20,420 nt of DNA, taken from positions 1 to 20,420 of IMG/VR virus record IMGVR_UViG_3300030329_005489; one strand, written 5' to 3'. Source of the DNA: a virus. Below the pieces are notes generated by a model. That model saw only the letters and a program-made list of their open reading frames with translations, made no database searches and had not been told where the DNA came from. Shown one piece after another: positions 3,190 to 20,420 of the stretch; the first letter of the stretch is position 1, and each line of letters begins with the position of its first letter. Both the position numbers and the translations under genes were made by a program.

Positions 3190-4671
3190 TTAGTTAGCAA
3201 ACGTGAATCCTGGTACTTGGCGCACCACTTCAACAAGCTGAACTGCAGGAATCCTACCACGAGTGTCTTTGCGAGCGGCCATTCCGTAAACGGACTGAAC
3301 ACCTACAGCCGACAAGTGGGCTTGGTTTCCTGAGTTGGCGAAGTCGTCGTAGTGGAAGATTTGTTCCCCGAATACGCCACCTTTAGCGTAGTAGAGAGCA
3401 TTTCTTCCGGCGGCCAATGCGTAACCGATCGGAGTTCCGATCTCGTTAGCTTGAACGAATGTAGATCCAGCTGGGAACGCGTCGTCAGCGGACTGAGTAC
3501 CTGCGGAGATAGCACCGGAGATGTCGACGTGAGAAGCACCTTCGATTGCACTCATGTCAGCGTTGAAGTCGCCGCTATCGTAGCTGTACAAGCGGAACTC
3601 GCCGTTTGGCTTGATGCCGAGGATGTGCTTGGTTCCGGATTCTTGGACGGCGTTTTCGCCCCCACCACCTGGAATCTTGACTCCTGCGCCAACGAAGTTA
3701 GCCATGTAATCTCCACCAGCTTCACCGATTGATACCGTAGCGTCAGCTATGTCTGTGAAGTTCGAGAACGAAGGAAGAAGCGGGCTGCCTTGACGACCGC
3801 GAGCTGAATCCATGATCACGTTGTGGTTAGCGATTACGTTGTTGTCCCACTTGGCGTATGAGCCTGTGTACAACTTGTTGTTCTCACCGCGAGAGTCGGC
3901 TTGCGTGATGGCTTCCAAGTAATCGGGATCACTGCGAAGTGGACGAAGGCAGGCATCGGAGGCAAAGAATAAATAGCCTGGGATTTCCTGATTTACGTCT
4001 CCTCCGGTGTTCATGGGCTCACCACCGCCAGCAATAAGAGCTTGCTTGGCTTCTTGAATGATGTCCGTGCTGAGACCTTCGGAGTACTTGAGTGCTCCAC
4101 TGGCTCCGTAAGCGGAAATCAAGTTGCTTCCGACATTAGCGGAATTCAAGCAGGTTTGGCGAAGTGCAAGCATGATGTGGTCTTGCTCGGTACGAGCCAT
4201 CCACTCAGTCATGACTTCAGCCGAAAGCTGATCGATGGTTTTGCCTGTGAAGCGCATCAATTTGAGAACTTGCGTCCATGCGACTGCATGACGAACGAGA
4301 TCGATTTCGAGATGAAAGGTATCGAAATCGAGGCTATCCGTAGAGTTCTTCAGAACCTCTTCCCCACGGACACCTTGTCCGCGAATCGGAGCTACAGTAG
4401 TGAAGACCACGCGGTCGGAACCGCCTGCAGATAGGTCGCGCTTTTCAGTTATCGGTTTGTCACTTCCTTCGCCGCCGATGAACTTTGCGAACACGTTTTT
4501 TTCCCTGGCGTCCCTCGTTACGAGTTCGGACCAGATTTTAGTGCGCAATTCATCGGAACCGCTTCCTTTGAGAAGGTCGGCGTATGAAGAGATGTTGCCT
4601 TGGATTAGATCAACGTTGGCACCGGAAAGACCGGCAGCAGCGTTGTCTGCTGGGAATGTTTTATCAGCCAT
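3190..4671 (-). CDS. Major capsid protein, N4-gp56/DUF4043-like
   Basis: A 493-residue protein with the features of the N4-gp56 / DUF4043 capsid family. An N-terminal segment of A-R-E-K-N-V-F type is followed by the family-like stretch G-Q-G-V-R-G-E-E-V-L-K-N (about 98-109). Then comes the helical V-R-H-A-V-A-W segment (about 125-131) and a long helix ending W-M-A-R-T-E-Q-D. These proteins form the icosahedral shell. It directly follows the scaffold gene, the usual order. ATG at 4671 is the only sensible start, yet no Shine-Dalgarno sequence precedes it; the leader is AT-rich. The gene is bracketed by hairpins on both sides (4688-4728 and 3122-3174), perhaps to stabilise a highly used message. 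Confidence 0.88.
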   Translation of the reverse strand: MADKTFPADNAAAGLSGANVDLIQGNISSYADLLKGSGSDELRTKIWSELVTRDAREKNVFAKFIGGEGSDKPITEKRDLSAGGSDRVVFTTVAPIRGQGVRGEEVLKNSTDSLDFDTFHLEIDLVRHAVAWTQVLKLMRFTGKTIDQLSAEVMTEWMARTEQDHIMLALRQTCLNSANVGSNLISAYGASGALKYSEGLSTDIIQEAKQALIAGGGEPMNTGGDVNQEIPGYLFFASDACLRPLRSDPDYLEAITQADSRGENNKLYTGSYAKWDNNVIANHNVIMDSARGRQGSPLLPSFSNFTDIADATVSIGEAGGDYMANFVGAGVKIPGGGGENAVQESGTKHILGIKPNGEFRLYSYDSGDFNADMSAIEGASHVDISGAISAGTQSADDAFPAGSTFVQANEIGTPIGYALAAGRNALYYAKGGVFGEQIFHYDDFANSGNQAHLSAVGVQSVYGMAARKDTRGRIPAVQLVEVVRQVPGFTFAN

Positions 4672-6393: not shown

Positions 6394-7224
6394 TCAACCG
6401 AGGGCTGATGAGAAATCGCTATACTCGCCTAAGACGTTGTCGCCTATGTAGAGAGCTCCAACTTCAACGTCGGCTCCCGAGTTGGTGCCTCCGTCAACGT
6501 CGGAGTCAGTAGCGGTAGCGTCGGTTTCAATGAACTCGAACTTCGAAGTTCCGGCATTCCAGCCCATGAACTTGTTAGTTCCGCCACAGTCGACGAGAAG
6601 CCCGGCGTCAGAACTTCCGTTGCCACCTTTAGAGACGGCTACGATAGCGTCATCAACGTTCAAGTTAGTCGTTTCGACGGCGGTTGTCGCGCCTTGAACA
6701 GTCAACGAACCGGTGATCGTCATGTCGCCGCTAACGGTTCCACCTGTTTTGTCGTACTTGTCGCTGTCCAAAGAATCGATGTTGCTTTGGAGAGTGCTGT
6801 CAGCAGCTTCACGAGCGGACTCTTCCGAGTCGATGTTGCTTTGAAGCGTAGAGTCAGCGGCTTGGCGAGCGGATTCTTCCGAATCAATGTTGCTTTGAAG
6901 CGTGGAGTCGGCGGATTCACGAGTTGAAGCTTCCGTGTCGATGTTCGACTGAAGCGTAGAATCAGCGCTTTCGCGAGTTGAAGCTTCGCTGTCGATGTTC
7001 GACTGAAGTGTGGAGTCAGCGCTTTCACGAGCGGATTCTTCGGAATCAATGTTGTTTTGCAACGAAGTGTCGGCAGATGCACGAGTTGAAGCTTCGCTGT
7101 CGATGTTGGATTGGAGGGTGCTGTCGGCCGCTTCGCGAGCTGTTTCTTCAGCGTCAATGTTAGACTGAAGCGTATCAACCTTGCTTTTTACTGCGGTACC
7201 GATTTGTGAGAGAATATTAGCCAT
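6394..7224 (-). CDS. Tail fibre protein with 18-residue repeats
   Basis: A 276-residue protein in three parts. Residues 1-16 (M-A-N-I-L-S-Q-I-G-T...) look like an attachment peptide and are shared with the 68-aa protein at 7537-7743. Residues 17-150 hold eight 18-residue units, each with L-Q-S/N-N-I-D, probably a trimeric coiled-coil shaft. Residues about 156-276 start with Y-D-K-T-G-G-T-V-S-G-D-M, a common tail-fibre phrase, and continue as a Gly/Thr/Asp-rich beta part. No intramolecular chaperone or enzymatic domain is seen, and the receptor tip is short. ATG at 7224 has an AGGA site 8 bases upstream. A palindrome 70 bases upstream and the terminator after its stop suggest a single-gene unit. 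Host-surface binding is inferred. Confidence 0.82.
   Translation of the reverse strand: MANILSQIGTAVKSKVDTLQSNIDAEETAREAADSTLQSNIDSEASTRASADTSLQNNIDSEESARESADSTLQSNIDSEASTRESADSTLQSNIDTEASTRESADSTLQSNIDSEESARQAADSTLQSNIDSEESAREAADSTLQSNIDSLDSDKYDKTGGTVSGDMTITGSLTVQGATTAVETTNLNVDDAIVAVSKGGNGSSDAGLLVDCGGTNKFMGWNAGTSKFEFIETDATATDSDVDGGTNSGADVEVGALYIGDNVLGEYSDFSSALG
6775..7176 (-). repeat. 54-bp tandem repeats coding the fibre shaft
   Basis: Eight units of 18 codons. L-Q-S-N-I-D or L-Q-N-N-I-D starts at residues 19, 37, 55, 73, 91, 109, 127 and 145 without a single break in the period. Variable positions alternate S-E-A-S-T-R-E and S-E-E-S-A-R-E types. In-frame gain or loss of units would change shaft length. 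Confidence 0.9.
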
Positions 7225-13225: not shown

Positions 13226-15265
13226 TTATCCTTGTTGAGTTTGAACTTGTTGTTGATATTGATTTTCTCCCTGAGGGTTGGAATTGCCCATGCCTTCTAC
13301 GGCTCCGGAAATCCCGTCACCTGGTTGCGGTGACTCACCCTGTGCGGCGTTGTCGCCCATCATCTTCATTATTTCAGCTTCCGTCTTGGGATCGGGGGGA
13401 GCTTCAGGCGGCAATAGCTCGTCCGTATTCTCGTAGCCCATGGCATCCAAGATACGCTTGAGCATGGGTCGTATGAACGGACGCATTTCGGGAGGAGATT
13501 GGAAAAATCTTTCTTGTGTTTGTAGAGCGAGGTTCGCCTTTTCTATCGCCCTTTGACCTTGGTCCTGAGACAGGATGACCCTCACGTTGACCGACAAGTT
13601 TTCGATCATCTCCGGAGTCATCATAGCGAAGGCTGAGGTGTCCCCCTCCATGTATTCGTAGACCTCGGCCTCGTCCATGGTGGCCATTGCGATTTGTACG
13701 AGCTTCGTGATGTGACCCTCGAAGCCTTTTACGATTCTACGCATCCACCGACGACCTATTTTCGAGGCTTCGCTGAGAGTGGCTTCCACACCTGTTGCGG
13801 TGTTGGCGGGAGCTAACGCTTGGTAGTCGCCCTGAGCCATGTTGCTGACTCCCAACCACAACTGAACGATACCGAATACGAAATCGATCAGCTCTTGCGT
13901 CTTTATGTCGACGCTAGGTACTGCTGCGAAGTTTATGAAATCATCGATCGTGTACTGATCCTTGAGCTCGAATATCTTACCCGCATGCAGTTCGACATCC
14001 TCGGGCTCGTCTTCGACGGCTTGGGGATTCACGCCGATTATCGGATTGGCTGCGAGCTCGTTGCGGTAGCTTTGAGCGTTGAACTGCTTGTCCACGTATT
14101 CTTGGAAAGTGCCTATACGCTCAGGTAAGCTGTACCCGCACCACTTGTTCCGCTCCTTGCCGATGGAAACCACGGTGTAGGGGAGCTTGTTGTCCGGAGT
14201 GAGCTTGGCTACGTATTCGTAATATAAAATCTTTTTGGTCTCGGAGTCGTAGAACACACAGAAATCTTGAGGTTTCCCCGTGCCTAAAACGTCTCGCTTC
14301 ACCCAACATTCCACTATGGGTATGCTCGGGTTCTTCTCGGAATCGAAGGTGAGGTCTTCCACGCGGTTTTCGTTCTTTTCTATTTCGGAACGGGGGTTGG
14401 CGTCCTTCTTCACCAGATTCAGGTAATCTCCGAAACTGCACCACTCACGCTCCAAGAACATGTCCTTAACCCAGCGCAAATCCTTGTCGTACAACTCTAC
14501 GACCATGTCGGCTTTGTCTACGGATTCCACAGTTGTCGGACATAGGAAACGATCGCTGTCCACGACCTCTGACCTTGGACCCTTGTACTTCACCTGTTGG
14601 GTTGGGACACCTTCAGGAAAGGGTTGGAACTGATGCACCCCTGGCACCATCTGAAACGTGGGATCCGTCGCTAGACGCATCTCAGTCTCACCGGTCATCG
14701 GGTTCGGCTCGGGGATGAATTGCGCTTCGCCCTCGAGGATTGGTCCTTGGCCGGGTATCTGTTCGAATTCTTGAGACTCGTTGTTGAAAAGAGCACTGCG
14801 TTCGCGGTCGTACCATACGGAAACGTCCTCCTCGTAAACAGCCTTCATGATGACGGCTCTTTGGACGAATATGTGAAGGTAAGACTCCTCCAAACGTTCG
14901 CGGGTCTCAGCTCTGTCCTCTATCTTCCAGTTGAAGTATTTGTCGTATGCTTCTGCGGCATCTATGTCGGAGGCTCCTTGAGCGTCGAATTTAAAATATG
15001 GGGATGTGCCGGTGATCTCGTCTTCGGCACGAGCCATGAAATGGTCGACTACTAAGGACGTAAGAGGTACGGCGAGGTTGGATTTGTCGAATATGGAGTC
15101 GTGAGCCAGGCGGTCGTCACGTAAATTGTTGTATCTCTTCCAGGATATGCGATCTGCCTCTATACGTTCCTTGTTGTCTTCCTGCAGCTGTTCTACGCGT
15201 TTGGTGAGATATTCGAGGAGATCCTTCTCCTGTTTGTAGTTTAACTGTAAATTAGATTGCTTCAT
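13226..15265 (-). CDS. Portal protein
   Basis: A 679-residue protein with the size and pattern of podoviral portal proteins (P22/N4-like groups). The N-terminal coiled region (E-Y-L-T-K-R-V-E-Q-L-Q) is followed by W-K-R-Y-N-N-L-R-D-D-R (about 44-54). Further on is the family-typical helix L-T-S-L-V-V-D-H-F-M-A-R-A-E-D-E-I-T-G (about 68-86). The later helical stem-like part contains N-M-A-Q-G-D-Y-Q and A-N-T-A-T-G-V-E-A-T-L-S-E-A. The last ~60 residues are Gln/Asn/Gly-rich. Twelve copies would form the DNA entry ring of the head. ATG at 15265 overlaps the stop of the giant protein (ATGA). Identification is by overall pattern, without a profile search. Confidence 0.82.
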   Translation of the reverse strand: MKQSNLQLNYKQEKDLLEYLTKRVEQLQEDNKERIEADRISWKRYNNLRDDRLAHDSIFDKSNLAVPLTSLVVDHFMARAEDEITGTSPYFKFDAQGASDIDAAEAYDKYFNWKIEDRAETRERLEESYLHIFVQRAVIMKAVYEEDVSVWYDRERSALFNNESQEFEQIPGQGPILEGEAQFIPEPNPMTGETEMRLATDPTFQMVPGVHQFQPFPEGVPTQQVKYKGPRSEVVDSDRFLCPTTVESVDKADMVVELYDKDLRWVKDMFLEREWCSFGDYLNLVKKDANPRSEIEKNENRVEDLTFDSEKNPSIPIVECWVKRDVLGTGKPQDFCVFYDSETKKILYYEYVAKLTPDNKLPYTVVSIGKERNKWCGYSLPERIGTFQEYVDKQFNAQSYRNELAANPIIGVNPQAVEDEPEDVELHAGKIFELKDQYTIDDFINFAAVPSVDIKTQELIDFVFGIVQLWLGVSNMAQGDYQALAPANTATGVEATLSEASKIGRRWMRRIVKGFEGHITKLVQIAMATMDEAEVYEYMEGDTSAFAMMTPEMIENLSVNVRVILSQDQGQRAIEKANLALQTQERFFQSPPEMRPFIRPMLKRILDAMGYENTDELLPPEAPPDPKTEAEIMKMMGDNAAQGESPQPGDGISGAVEGMGNSNPQGENQYQQQVQTQQG

Positions 15266-18200
15266 AATTCGAAACCGAGCTCTCTAGCCTTTCGTATAGC
15301 ATGGATCTGTGACTTTAACTGTTTAGCCTCTAGCTTGTCTACCTGTTGTGTGATCTCGAAGTCGGTGAGCTTCTTGTTGTTCTCTGCCTTTTTAATCTGC
15401 CTACGTATGGCGTTTTTGTTCTTTTCCACGTTCTTGACCAGCTTTAGAAACGGCAGCACCTCCTTGTACTTTTGTCGGATTGCGGTCGCTGACTTAGGCC
15501 CCGCTTTTTCCGCTTCCTCTATTTCGTCGCCGATGGCCTCCGTGAGATTGTGGAGAGATTTGAAGTCGGATCTGATGTTTACTCCATGAGTAGATCCGCG
15601 AACGAATCTACTGGCTATCGGGATGGCGCCCCAGTCGAACTCGACTTTCTTCCCGATAACCGTGTTGTAAAGCAGTCCGACACCCGCATCGCCTATCTGC
15701 CCCATTCCTCCCAAATAGTTGTAAAGCAAGTGTTGGAATTGGCTTCCCGAAATGTCGAATTGTACGGATTGCTCAGCGGATGCTAGCGAGGGATCGCCGA
15801 TCAAAGTCCCCTTGGTATCGTCGGAACCGCCGAAGAAGCTGTTCAGCCCTTTGGACAAGTCCTTCCAGTGCTGGGACGTGCTAGCAGGGTCTTGCATGTG
15901 ACCAGGCTGTGGCGGGTTCCAGCGAGAGTCTTCGTAGCGTATTGGGCTGCCCATGAAATTTTCATTCGTTTTCAACTCAATAAGAGGCTTGAAAGCCGAA
16001 GGTACGCCCATCGTGAGCATGCTGTCACTATTCACCGGGTTTACTGCGTTAGTGACTGCCCGAGTGATACGGCTGGTTCCATCCAAAATACTAGATCCGG
16101 CGTTGGCTCCCATACCGACTCTGGCCAAAACATCGCCAACAACTTGGCCGATTGCCCATAAGGCGTTGTACCCTAGAGGTAATGGGAGAGAGAAAAACCC
16201 GGTGTCTTTTTTAGCATACCCCTCTTCATTACCGAAGAACCACGAGGGCATGGGCACTATGAGATTGGTGTCCCGCTTGTAAGAATTGATGGTGTCGTAG
16301 TCGGGTTGTTCCTCCTCGTCGTCCTGAGGATCCAGCATGCGATTAAAAAGTGATACGGTGATCGCGGATCCTATGATACCTCCAAACAACACGGACAATT
16401 CCTTTGGGCTCCTCGAGTTCAGCGATCGAATCATTCGATCAATCGAATTCATACCTGCTCCGAAGAATACGTATAGAGCCCCTAAGGTCTGGGTGTAATT
16501 CCCTTTTTGGTTGAAATCTACCGTTACGTTTCTTGCGATGTGGGTGGCTTTCTCCACGGAGTCGCCTCGTTTGATCGCAGCCCAGAACGAGGACATGCGG
16601 ATAGAGTTTTCAACGGCGGTGTTCATGTGATCGATCGTCTTGCCCACTGCGGTCGCCGTCTTCCTTGTCAGACCCTTGTGCTTGGCTATATCCTTGTTGA
16701 TCTGCTCGACCTGTTCGAGCATGGAAGAATGCCTGAAGTAACCTACTTTGGCTCCCGCAGCTTGGGCGAATTCATACATCTTCGCATGATCTCCCTCAGC
16801 GAGAAGATCCGCTGCGGTCTTGGCCATAGCCTTGGCGTTCGTCGTGTCCAAGTCCATGGCTAGCAAATCCTCACCCCGGGCCTTCGCCCGCTCCGCTCTG
16901 TGAATACCCCGAGCGAATTTGGCGATGTTGCCCATGTTTAAGGCGTCCTTGACCAGACCACGCTTTTCATCCTCCGTGAGGTGTATGAATGCGGTCCCGT
17001 AATCTCGAAAGAAGTTGGGGATTATGAATGCGGGGTTTGCCGAGGTGTACATCTTGGCCAAAAACCGAGTGGCCGTGTTGAAAGGCTTAAGAACGCTCGG
17101 CAATGCCTGATAACGTAAATTCTTCATGGTGTCCGCCATTGCGGAACCTTCCTGGCTAACCTTGAATTTTACGAACAGCGGAACCCCATCCTTGCGGTAA
17201 ACGAACACGTGAGGGTCGTTTCGAAATTCCAAATTCAACTTACGGCGTCGAGTCCTCAAACGAGGTATCGCCTTACCGTTTTCATCCAAGACATCCTCTG
17301 CCTCGAGCTTGTATTCCTTACCCTCTTCGGTGGGCTTGAACTCCGTCTCGAAGGTTTTGTGGAAGTCCTCTGCGATCGCAGCTTTGGAGTCATCCGTCAT
17401 CTCGTCGATGAGCTTTGCATACTCGGGGTTGGATGTTCGAAGCTGCTCCAAATACTTGGGATTAGCTACTGCTCGCATCATCTCAAACAGCTCTCCGAAC
17501 GATTGACTGACCTCGTTTTTCTGAGATCTTATGGAGTCATTGAAATACTGCTCTACGGCGGTAGCTAAAGTTATCGCAGGATCGGGAGCGTAGGAACCTT
17601 TGACGCCGTCCTTGACGAACGACCCTCGACCGAAGGCCCCTTTCGATATGAACTTCTGCTTGGGTTGATCCCAGCCCTTACCCGTCGTGCTGGCGGCCTT
17701 GCCCAACCTCTCATACGCCTCTTCGCGATTTTGCAGTTTGTCAGTCTCGCCCGCAAAACCCTGCATAGGTGCGTACGAGTATTTATCATTCAATTTTATG
17801 TTGGAGATTTTGTTCCAGTCGTAATGCGACATCGCCGCCACCATGCGCTCGTTTTCGGCGAGCGATCCCGGATTGCTCGATCCCTGAATAAGACCCGCTG
17901 CCGTCTTTTGATCCAAAGCGTCCCGATTCATGGCATAGAACTTTTGGAGAGGTTGTGACGAGTCGTTGAGAAAATCCATGAAATCCTTTTCGGCTTCCAT
18001 GGTTCGTACAACATCTTCGGCCACGTGAGTTTCAATCCCTGATGTCGGGATCTCCGCTGTTTTATGCTTCTCCTTTAAGTCCTTGTACCTCTGGCTCTGG
18101 TTCTCCATGGAGCGATTCTTGTTATATAAGCTGGCAAGCTCCTCTTTCTGTTGATCCAGTTCCCGCAAGCGCAAATGCTCGTTACGAGAAGGAGCCGCCC

Positions 18201-20420
18201 GAGCCAACAGATATTCGCCGAATCTCTCCTGCGTTATCTTGTGCTTCCGCAAGGCAGCCTTTATGGGCTCTATGTATTTTCGCTCGGCGCGTTCTACCGT
18301 GTAGTATCCTTTACCGAAGTAAGCGTGCCATTTTCGGTGAACCTGCAAGGTATCCCATATCGGGCTGTCTTCAGGTATTCCCATCTCCTTCAGGAGTTTG
18401 TCGTGTAAATGTTTTACTGGGCGTGCCTGATCCACGAAATTGGTCATGGCCGTACCCTTGATCATCCTTGCCAGCATCCCGTCTCTGTCGGGGTCGCCTT
18501 GGTTATTCGCCAAGAAGCGGGACATCCCAAAGAGGTTTGCGAAGTTGTCAGGCAGAGAACTGGTGAGAACCATGCCTGCGCCCAACGACCCTAGACCCTC
18601 GTCCTTAGACTCTTTTGTTTTCACGGGGACCTTTTCCTTCTCGGGCATGATGTTTATCTCTTCGCCCTTGGTCTCCGTGTTTTCCAGTGCCTGTATTGCC
18701 TTGTCGAACTCGGTCAACTTGCCTTCCACGAACTCCGTTAAACTGAAGGCCGAATCCACAGCACCCTTGCCTTGAGCCAGCACCTTGTTCAGCCCGGCCA
18801 AAGCTGCCTGGGCGAGGGCCACGGTTCTCTGCGTGGAATCAATTGCCTTGGCCCTTTCTCCCGGGACTTTGCTGGAACTGGTGCGCAGGTGGGACACGTA
18901 ATTCCTCAGCAACTTTATGCTCTCTTTTAACTCTACCGACTGTTCTTGCTCAAAGTTCACGAGACTAATTCTACTATAGGCTTTTTTTACATCAGCGGGG
19001 GTCCACGGACGCTCGGCCATAGCTTTTTTGCCCGATATTCTTCTTCCAGATCCCTCCAGGAATTTGTCAAAAGCCTCCAACTCTTCCCTAAAAATCATGT
19101 CCTCTATCCGCCAAGCTTCCAAAAGCCCGATATCGTTTTCCAAAGCGTGACGTCTAGCTTCTTCAGCCCCCTCAAAATACGCGTCCTGCGCATCTACTTC
19201 GATTAAGGTGTCTGTTAAATCATCTAGATTGGTAAACTTGCGTCTCGCGGCACGCTCTTGCTCTTTGTTTAAGTCTACGTGGTCTGCCGACAGCAAGTTG
19301 TAATCTAGGGACGCCTTTTCTATTTCCGCACTTAACCTAACCTTCTCTAGAGAGTCGACCCCCTGAGATACGGTCTCCTCCAAAAAGGTGGTTACCAAAT
19401 CCCCTAGGGTTCCGTCTGGGTAGGGGGCTTTGGTTCTTATTCCGGGGCTTAGGTCGGCGCTTGACGGAGAAAAACTGTAGCGGTATTTCGAATTCGAGTA
19501 GTGGAGCCCTACCTTAGCTAACATGTCCTTTTCGAACTGCGCCATCGCACCCTCAAACTCTAGGTCATAATACCCCATGTCGACTTTCTTGTCGTGCTTT
19601 TGAAACTCTTCTCGCAGTTTATCGTACCGAGGGCCCGTATCACCCTCACCCCACTCACGTATGTCCTCAGGACTCCAATTAGGAGGGTACTTAAAATCAT
19701 CTGATGATGGAGGATCTATTCCAAGTTCGTCGGCTATCGCCCTAACTAGATTGTCCTGCGCCTTCCACCTTGGTGTGTCTATTACACGATTGAAGCTTTG
19801 TAGCTTTTTCTCGCGCATCTGTAGATTACTTATCTTCCACAGAGCATTCCAACGTTTGTCTTGTACGGACAGTGCCGCCCCCTTGGACGCCGTTTTGACG
19901 GCAGCCCCCGCTGTCTTTGGTAAACCCGTAACTGCTGTGGTGGCTCCTAATCCAAGGGTCTTCAAAAAGCCCCTACGAGAAGAGCCTGCGTCTACCTCTT
20001 CCTCAGGCACTGATGTCTTAGTCCTGCGGACAGTGCCAAATAGGAATTTCGACAACATCTCGCGGAAAGTTAATCGGTCTTCGTCGGGCAGCCCGGAGCC
20101 GAGTAGCTCGGAGGGGTGGTAAATCAATTCTAAGAAAGCCTTGTATAGAGGCTTGCTTTTCAGCTCCTCCACAAAAGTTCTTACGGCCTTCCTCTGGACT
20201 TCGAAATCTTTTACTTGATCCAACTTAGGTGCCGGAGCGCCCTGTTGTCGTCTGTCATCGGCGGCGTCGATAAGGCTCTGTCCATACAGCTTCTGCTGTA
20301 TCGGCGCTAGCTGTCTATTCAACTCGTTTATCCGTTTGGTGATCTGCGGATGTTTTGCCTCGGCGACAGTGGTGTAAAGAGCTTCTTGGGTCTTTATTTG
20401 GCTTTTGAGGGCCGCTTCCT
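15262..20420 (-). CDS. Giant LPD38-like polyvalent virion protein, N-terminus beyond window
   Basis: The frame is open from 20420 to the stop at 15262, giving 1718 visible residues. A TTG at 20322 is not a convincing start, because 32 more sense codons precede it and continue the same charged helical sequence. In numbering from that TTG: S-R-R-G-F-L-K at 115-121, a full Tat motif, is followed by a Gly/Ala-rich hydrophobic stretch. Long charged helical segments occupy about 150-1050. Near 1095 is N-P-A-F-I-I-P-N-F-F-R-D, then a region ending E-N-S-I-R-M-S-S-F-W and H-I-A-R-N-V-T-V-D-F-N (about 1230-1275), and a membrane-like helix at about 1306-1325. The latter block matches my memory of the LPD38 domain of phage polyvalent proteins, which are packaged and delivered into the host. 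No catalytic motif was recognised. The gene precedes the portal by ATGA overlap. Confidence 0.75.
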   Translation of the reverse strand, partial: EAALKSQIKTQEALYTTVAEAKHPQITKRINELNRQLAPIQQKLYGQSLIDAADDRRQQGAPAPKLDQVKDFEVQRKAVRTFVEELKSKPLYKAFLELIYHPSELLGSGLPDEDRLTFREMLSKFLFGTVRRTKTSVPEEEVDAGSSRRGFLKTLGLGATTAVTGLPKTAGAAVKTASKGAALSVQDKRWNALWKISNLQMREKKLQSFNRVIDTPRWKAQDNLVRAIADELGIDPPSSDDFKYPPNWSPEDIREWGEGDTGPRYDKLREEFQKHDKKVDMGYYDLEFEGAMAQFEKDMLAKVGLHYSNSKYRYSFSPSSADLSPGIRTKAPYPDGTLGDLVTTFLEETVSQGVDSLEKVRLSAEIEKASLDYNLLSADHVDLNKEQERAARRKFTNLDDLTDTLIEVDAQDAYFEGAEEARRHALENDIGLLEAWRIEDMIFREELEAFDKFLEGSGRRISGKKAMAERPWTPADVKKAYSRISLVNFEQEQSVELKESIKLLRNYVSHLRTSSSKVPGERAKAIDSTQRTVALAQAALAGLNKVLAQGKGAVDSAFSLTEFVEGKLTEFDKAIQALENTETKGEEINIMPEKEKVPVKTKESKDEGLGSLGAGMVLTSSLPDNFANLFGMSRFLANNQGDPDRDGMLARMIKGTAMTNFVDQARPVKHLHDKLLKEMGIPEDSPIWDTLQVHRKWHAYFGKGYYTVERAERKYIEPIKAALRKHKITQERFGEYLLARAAPSRNEHLRLRELDQQKEELASLYNKNRSMENQSQRYKDLKEKHKTAEIPTSGIETHVAEDVVRTMEAEKDFMDFLNDSSQPLQKFYAMNRDALDQKTAAGLIQGSSNPGSLAENERMVAAMSHYDWNKISNIKLNDKYSYAPMQGFAGETDKLQNREEAYERLGKAASTTGKGWDQPKQKFISKGAFGRGSFVKDGVKGSYAPDPAITLATAVEQYFNDSIRSQKNEVSQSFGELFEMMRAVANPKYLEQLRTSNPEYAKLIDEMTDDSKAAIAEDFHKTFETEFKPTEEGKEYKLEAEDVLDENGKAIPRLRTRRRKLNLEFRNDPHVFVYRKDGVPLFVKFKVSQEGSAMADTMKNLRYQALPSVLKPFNTATRFLAKMYTSANPAFIIPNFFRDYGTAFIHLTEDEKRGLVKDALNMGNIAKFARGIHRAERAKARGEDLLAMDLDTTNAKAMAKTAADLLAEGDHAKMYEFAQAAGAKVGYFRHSSMLEQVEQINKDIAKHKGLTRKTATAVGKTIDHMNTAVENSIRMSSFWAAIKRGDSVEKATHIARNVTVDFNQKGNYTQTLGALYVFFGAGMNSIDRMIRSLNSRSPKELSVLFGGIIGSAITVSLFNRMLDPQDDEEEQPDYDTINSYKRDTNLIVPMPSWFFGNEEGYAKKDTGFFSLPLPLGYNALWAIGQVVGDVLARVGMGANAGSSILDGTSRITRAVTNAVNPVNSDSMLTMGVPSAFKPLIELKTNENFMGSPIRYEDSRWNPPQPGHMQDPASTSQHWKDLSKGLNSFFGGSDDTKGTLIGDPSLASAEQSVQFDISGSQFQHLLYNYLGGMGQIGDAGVGLLYNTVIGKKVEFDWGAIPIASRFVRGSTHGVNIRSDFKSLHNLTEAIGDEIEEAEKAGPKSATAIRQKYKEVLPFLKLVKNVEKNKNAIRRQIKKAENNKKLTDFEITQQVDKLEAKQLKSQIHAIRKARELGFEL

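Follow-up and report, generated by a model that had tools for sequence, protein, structure and literature searches.

A giant protein encoded in the DNA of a marine bacterial virus analysed here (hereafter the window, i.e. the whole stretch of 20,420 bases) carries a twin-arginine (Tat)-type motif far inside its chain, where a discrete module of about 450 residues begins. Two observations are new: the Tat-headed module is all-or-none among related giants and occurs in three branches of their tree, and an internal motif of the same type is present in an unrelated phage protein encoded in the same genomic slot. The boundaries of the module, the conservation of its motif, its patchy distribution, the genomic slot and the parallel in another phage protein are all apparent from the sequences compared. 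As judged from these comparisons, the motif in the giant is selectively kept and not an accident. We tentatively propose that it is a Tat-type signal at the head of an exchangeable module, which may target the injected or processed giant to the Tat system or the inner membrane.

The giant LPD38 protein and its genomic slot

The window is a complete virus record and probably represents a fragment of a virus genome. It contains the following genes and domain:

15262..20418, minus strand: 3' part of the gene for the giant LPD38 protein (open frame, 1718 codons)
15619..16305, minus strand: LPD38 domain (Pfam PF18857; residues 1372-1600)
13226..15265, minus strand: portal protein gene, directly downstream of the giant (phrog_1216; E = 5.3e-28)
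3190..4671, minus strand: major head protein gene, farther downstream (phrog_334; E = 1.2e-20)

The frame of the giant (20418..15262) has no 5' stop inside the window, and the 5' end of the gene lies beyond it. The LPD38 domain, located near the C-terminus (E = 2.8e-28; 99.7 bits vs a gathering score of 27), confirms an earlier preliminary description of this DNA in placing the Tat-like motif inside a giant phage protein of polyvalent type. The giant also matches phrog_14770 (E = 1.8e-75). Scanning IMG/VR with the portal as bait yielded approximately 90 related loci, in which the same giant was found upstream of the portal wherever the loci were long enough. The gene order in two of these contigs, L009 and L012, is TerL, one protein, the giant and the portal. 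A search of viral contigs with the giant itself gave no match; genome contigs yielded a single 3-kb fragment and PDB sequences no useful match. The giant is probably a protein of internal-virion type; the TerL-to-portal slot is the one indication that it may be a virion component that is delivered into the host. Elsewhere in the window, a region at 6394-7224 (minus strand) encodes repeated DSTLQSNIDSE units with a weak likeness to phage adhesin and structural-protein families.

The giants have a mosaic multi-domain architecture, comprising the all-or-none module, variable inserts and HExxH motifs. These metallopeptidase-like (zincin-like) motifs occur one to three times per giant (L009, L012, L020, L025, L039 and others), and a HESGHFAR-like version recurs in most giants; Pfam did not recognize the HExxH motifs in the two giants scanned. 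Because many giants carry such motifs, their processing is possible. Polyvalent proteins are mosaic, and metallopeptidase domains have been suggested to process some of them (PMC5512222). The giants resemble the LPD38 polyvalent proteins of that study (DarB-like proteins of Burkholderia and other phages) in their C-terminal LPD38, great length, shuffling and metallopeptidase-like motifs, whereas the Tat model TIGR01409 had no matches in the six distant phage records tested as whole records. In size, they also recall ejected giant proteins such as the N4-type virion RNA polymerase, a protein of ~3,500 residues that travels inside the virion and is expelled into the host cell (PMC12633501). This likeness is an analogy only, and no polymerase domain was found in the window giant.

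A Tat-type motif at the head of an all-or-none module

The features of the giant that are related to the motif are as follows:

20056..20058, minus strand: in-frame ATG, earlier proposed as an internal start (no Shine-Dalgarno; matched only in L009)
19960..19980, minus strand: Tat-type motif SRRGFLK (residues 147-153 of the 5'-open giant)
19900..19959, minus strand: weakly hydrophobic Gly/Ala/Thr stretch TLGLGATTAVTGLPKTAGAA, ending in A-G-A-A and resembling h- and c-regions by sequence
18640..19986, minus strand: Tat-headed exchangeable module (residues 145-593), all-or-none across giants
18640..18660, minus strand: closing anchor EINIMPE, preceded by LE at fixed spacing (sequence pattern LEx7EINIxPE)

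SRRGFLK conforms to the twin-arginine consensus S/T-R-R-x-F-L-K, as the preliminary description had noted for positions 19980-19960. The window protein scores 17.9 bits with NCBIfam TIGR01409 (TAT_signal_seq; curated cut-off, 16.7), and a six-frame search of the record gave 19.9 bits, with the match spanning 19980-19909. The cut-off is also exceeded in the L009 and L012 contigs; with isolated 200-residue pieces, both fall under it, and L046 (another homologue that bears the motif) was unreported. SRRxFLK is the consensus of the Tat signal peptides described by TIGR01409 and PF10518, and the weakly hydrophobic stretch and the A-x-A farther on may correspond to their h-region and cleavage site. 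AGAA is encoded at 19911-19900 (minus strand), in Ala-rich surroundings that make A-x-A weak evidence of a cleavage site. Unlike those signal peptides, the motif of the giant lies thousands of residues inside the protein, and the Pfam TAT_signal model (PF10518) scores 11.9 on the window protein, under its cut-off of 22.7.

The depth of the motif was determined from the two carriers with long 5' sequence: it starts at residue 2,791 of a 4,390-residue frame in L009 and at residue 3,671 of a 5,834-residue frame in L012. The earlier minimum of 147 residues from the true N-terminus is thus correct as a bound but far too low. The N-termini of these two giants are unlike signal peptides, and the N-terminal location expected of a Tat signal peptide is found in none of the window, L009 and L012. 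No strong hydrophobic segment was found just upstream of the motif in the window or its relatives, indicating that there are no Sec-inserted helices at this position.

Besides the window, three homologues bear the motif, namely L009 (PSRRNFLKSLGLGA), L012 (PTRRGFLKSLALAV) and L046 (FNRRGFLKSLVMGA); the four carriers are all metagenomic. The residues R, R, F, L, K and L are invariant in their alignment, at overall identities to the window of 42, 23 and 20%, respectively, and L046 has N in place of S/T. Among 23 non-redundant giants (each with at least 1,600 residues visible; 75,619 residues in total), RR.FLK was observed four times vs 0.064 expected and RR.FLK.L four times vs 0.005 expected. 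Shuffling of the window protein produced [ST]RR.FLK in 6 of 20,000 trials. The window and L009 encode many of their shared residues with synonymous differences, and selection therefore acts on the protein. A tblastn search of phages with the Tat segment (44 residues) and the N-terminal 306 residues gave no matches, a plasmid search gave no match, and a profile of the Tat segment alone recovered only L009.

Homologues lacking RR had been named in advance as evidence against the signal. Such homologues exist (19 of the 23 giants, some of which end at a contig or locus edge, so that a motif farther upstream is possible in some), but they lack the whole module, and RR is kept in all four carriers. 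There is one weak alignable remnant without RR: in the L039 giant (residues ~2205-2620), one joint is followed by STLMGFAAANIKTGAKVAG, which is like the Tat stretch of L046. If L039 does keep the Tat stretch without RR, the twin arginines can be lost. The joint, KSKNRTLNSDxG, recurs between swapped blocks of the giant in L039 and also in L070 and L031.

The module is 410-470 residues long, with the Tat motif first and LEx7EINIxPE last. The latter pattern lies 400-460 residues after the motif in all four carriers and is absent from the other giants examined; an independent scan for EINIxPE led back to the same three carriers, its other matches being short and located in unrelated proteins. Profiles support the all-or-none character of the block. 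A profile of the window and L009 lacking the Tat start still found L046 (2.7e-8) and L012 (0.006), with non-members at 0.06 or worse, and L012 was no longer found when both ends were removed. L012 is therefore assigned to the module chiefly by the two anchors and the final ~140 residues. The 200-300 residues that follow the motif have diverged past reliable alignment. Upstream of the motif, profiles detected no homology of L012 with the window or L009; some sequence farther upstream is common to L009 and L046. In L012, ~650 residues including an HELIH motif are located between the module and the LPD38-containing core. AlphaFold2 modelling of the module from four sequences gave a mean pLDDT of 37.9 and was unusable. 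In a maximum-likelihood tree of the core, the carriers fall into three separate branches with relatives lacking the block between them, a distribution that fits either a block that has passed from giant to giant or an ancient one that was lost several times.

A parallel in an unrelated phage protein family

Viral contigs were also scanned with the pattern RRxFLKxLxxGA, and most matches were located just after a possible start codon. In one family unrelated to the giant (L108, L124, L125 and L130, plus the fragment L128), however, the motif is internal (RRxFLKMLGxGAG), with RR at residues 555-765 of proteins of 752-963 residues, and the four long members reach the TIGR01409 cut-off. Here the motif is the head of a conserved C-terminal block and directly follows a GGRIGYKVGG joint, before which the protein varies by insertions. 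The gene order in L130 is TerL, the L108-family protein, a 934-residue protein and a phrog_1216 portal, placing the family in the same TerL-to-portal slot as the giant. Neither the L108-family protein nor its neighbour has sequence similarity to the LPD38 core. Because the family was found via the motif, motif conservation within it is not independent evidence, but the internal position and the slot are.

The five sequences of this family contain repeated GGR(I/V/A)G(Y/F/L)KxG units, two of which carry RRxF(L/M)K; the last of these is the full internal Tat-like motif. The GG joints could be cleavage sites. A further viral contig (L091:3-1616, minus strand) contains a 538-residue frame with a strong Tat match (21.9 bits) at residue 174 and an in-frame Met ~22 residues before it.

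Possible roles of the internal motif

Tat signals ordinarily require a free N-terminus, and to our knowledge those described from within a chain are found in multi-spanning membrane proteins. Internal Tat signals work in dual Sec-Tat membrane proteins such as the Rieske protein Sco2149, in which Sec-inserted helices precede the signal (PMC5449189). The giant is similar in having a twin-arginine motif inside the chain, which in those proteins is recognized while tethered at both ends. Their signals, in contrast, come after an even number of Sec-inserted helices and are followed by a cofactor domain and a true transmembrane helix; the giant shows no such features.

Under the tentatively preferred reading, the giant (4,000-6,000 residues in the long relatives) would be packaged and injected with the DNA, or made in the cell and cut. 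RRxFLKxL and the weakly hydrophobic segment would then be recognized by the Tat receptor and draw the module to the inner membrane of the host, perhaps together with the C-terminal LPD38 part behind it. The signal might act as a tethered internal element or at a free N-terminus after cleavage just upstream. Because the Sec helices that precede the internal signals of proteins such as Sco2149 are not seen here, and HExxH-mediated processing is possible, we favour a signal that becomes active once the module has been released or is exposed at the inner membrane. That the giant is located in the virion, is processed, binds TatC and is exported or anchored is inferred. Consistent with such targeting are the TIGR01409 score above its cut-off, the invariance of RRFLKL at 20-42% identity (four occurrences vs 0.064), the bounding of the module by the motif and the end anchor in three branches, and the parallel family in the same slot. 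The usual requirement for a free N-terminus, the lack of preceding Sec helices, the number of carriers (four), the sub-threshold TIGR01409 results with isolated pieces, the dependence of L012 on its anchors and the possible loss of RR in L039 argue against it.

It is also possible, albeit unlikely, that the motif is not a Tat signal but a basic patch with a membrane-active or packing helix, belonging to a structural or ejection module and Tat-like by convergence, which serves membrane insertion at injection or contacts in the virion. The TerL-to-portal slot suggests internal-virion or ejection proteins, and in the L108 family only two of several GGRxG-headed repeat units contain RR.FLK, the others carrying basic helices; yet invariant twin arginines together with F, L and K correspond to the requirement of Tat and exceed the needs of a generic basic helix.

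Somewhat doubtful, too, is a relic, i.e. a module descended from a once independent protein that was exported by Tat and became part of the giant together with its signal, which is now idle or partly idle. Domain shuffling builds polyvalent proteins (PMC5512222), the shared block begins precisely with the motif, L012 lacks detectable homology to the window and L009 upstream, and L039 may be an eroded copy. Against a relic speak the retention of RRxFLKxL next to 200-300 residues that have diverged beyond reliable alignment and the failure of searches in phages, plasmids and viral contigs to find a free-standing relative.

It is highly improbable that an in-frame start, as proposed earlier for the ATG at 20058, yields a short form whose Tat signal is at the N-terminus as usual. 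This ATG precedes the first R by 27 residues in the window and L009 alike (making the R residue 28), and in L012 there are ATGs at distances of 4, 9 and 22 residues, the last with a purine-rich upstream sequence (-7.7 kcal/mol). Shine-Dalgarno pairing is, however, lacking at the ATGs of the window (+0.3 kcal/mol) and L009 (+0.4; background mean, -3.1), a weak test because several real genes of the same phage also lack one. Moreover, the ATG is common to L009 only, no start position is common to all four carriers, and the nearest ATG in L046 is 39 residues before the motif. Chance occurrence of a short motif in a very long protein was rejected as having next to no likelihood, being contradicted by the conservation of the motif (four vs 0.064 expected), its same place in the same module and the parallel in another family.

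More broadly, and this is an unlikely though conceivable extension suggested by the sequences, marine tailed phages may repeatedly have equipped injected or processed virion proteins of the TerL-to-portal slot with internal Tat signals, so that the Tat receptor of the host, engaged from the cytoplasmic side, places or exports part of the injected giant. A literature search of incomplete coverage found no report of an internal Tat-type signal in a phage giant. The Tat-headed segment offers a small, testable piece of proteins whose function is otherwise opaque. If targeting by the motif is true, a conserved internal Tat-type signal on a swappable block would mean that phages also exploit an export receptor of the host when they take over the cell.
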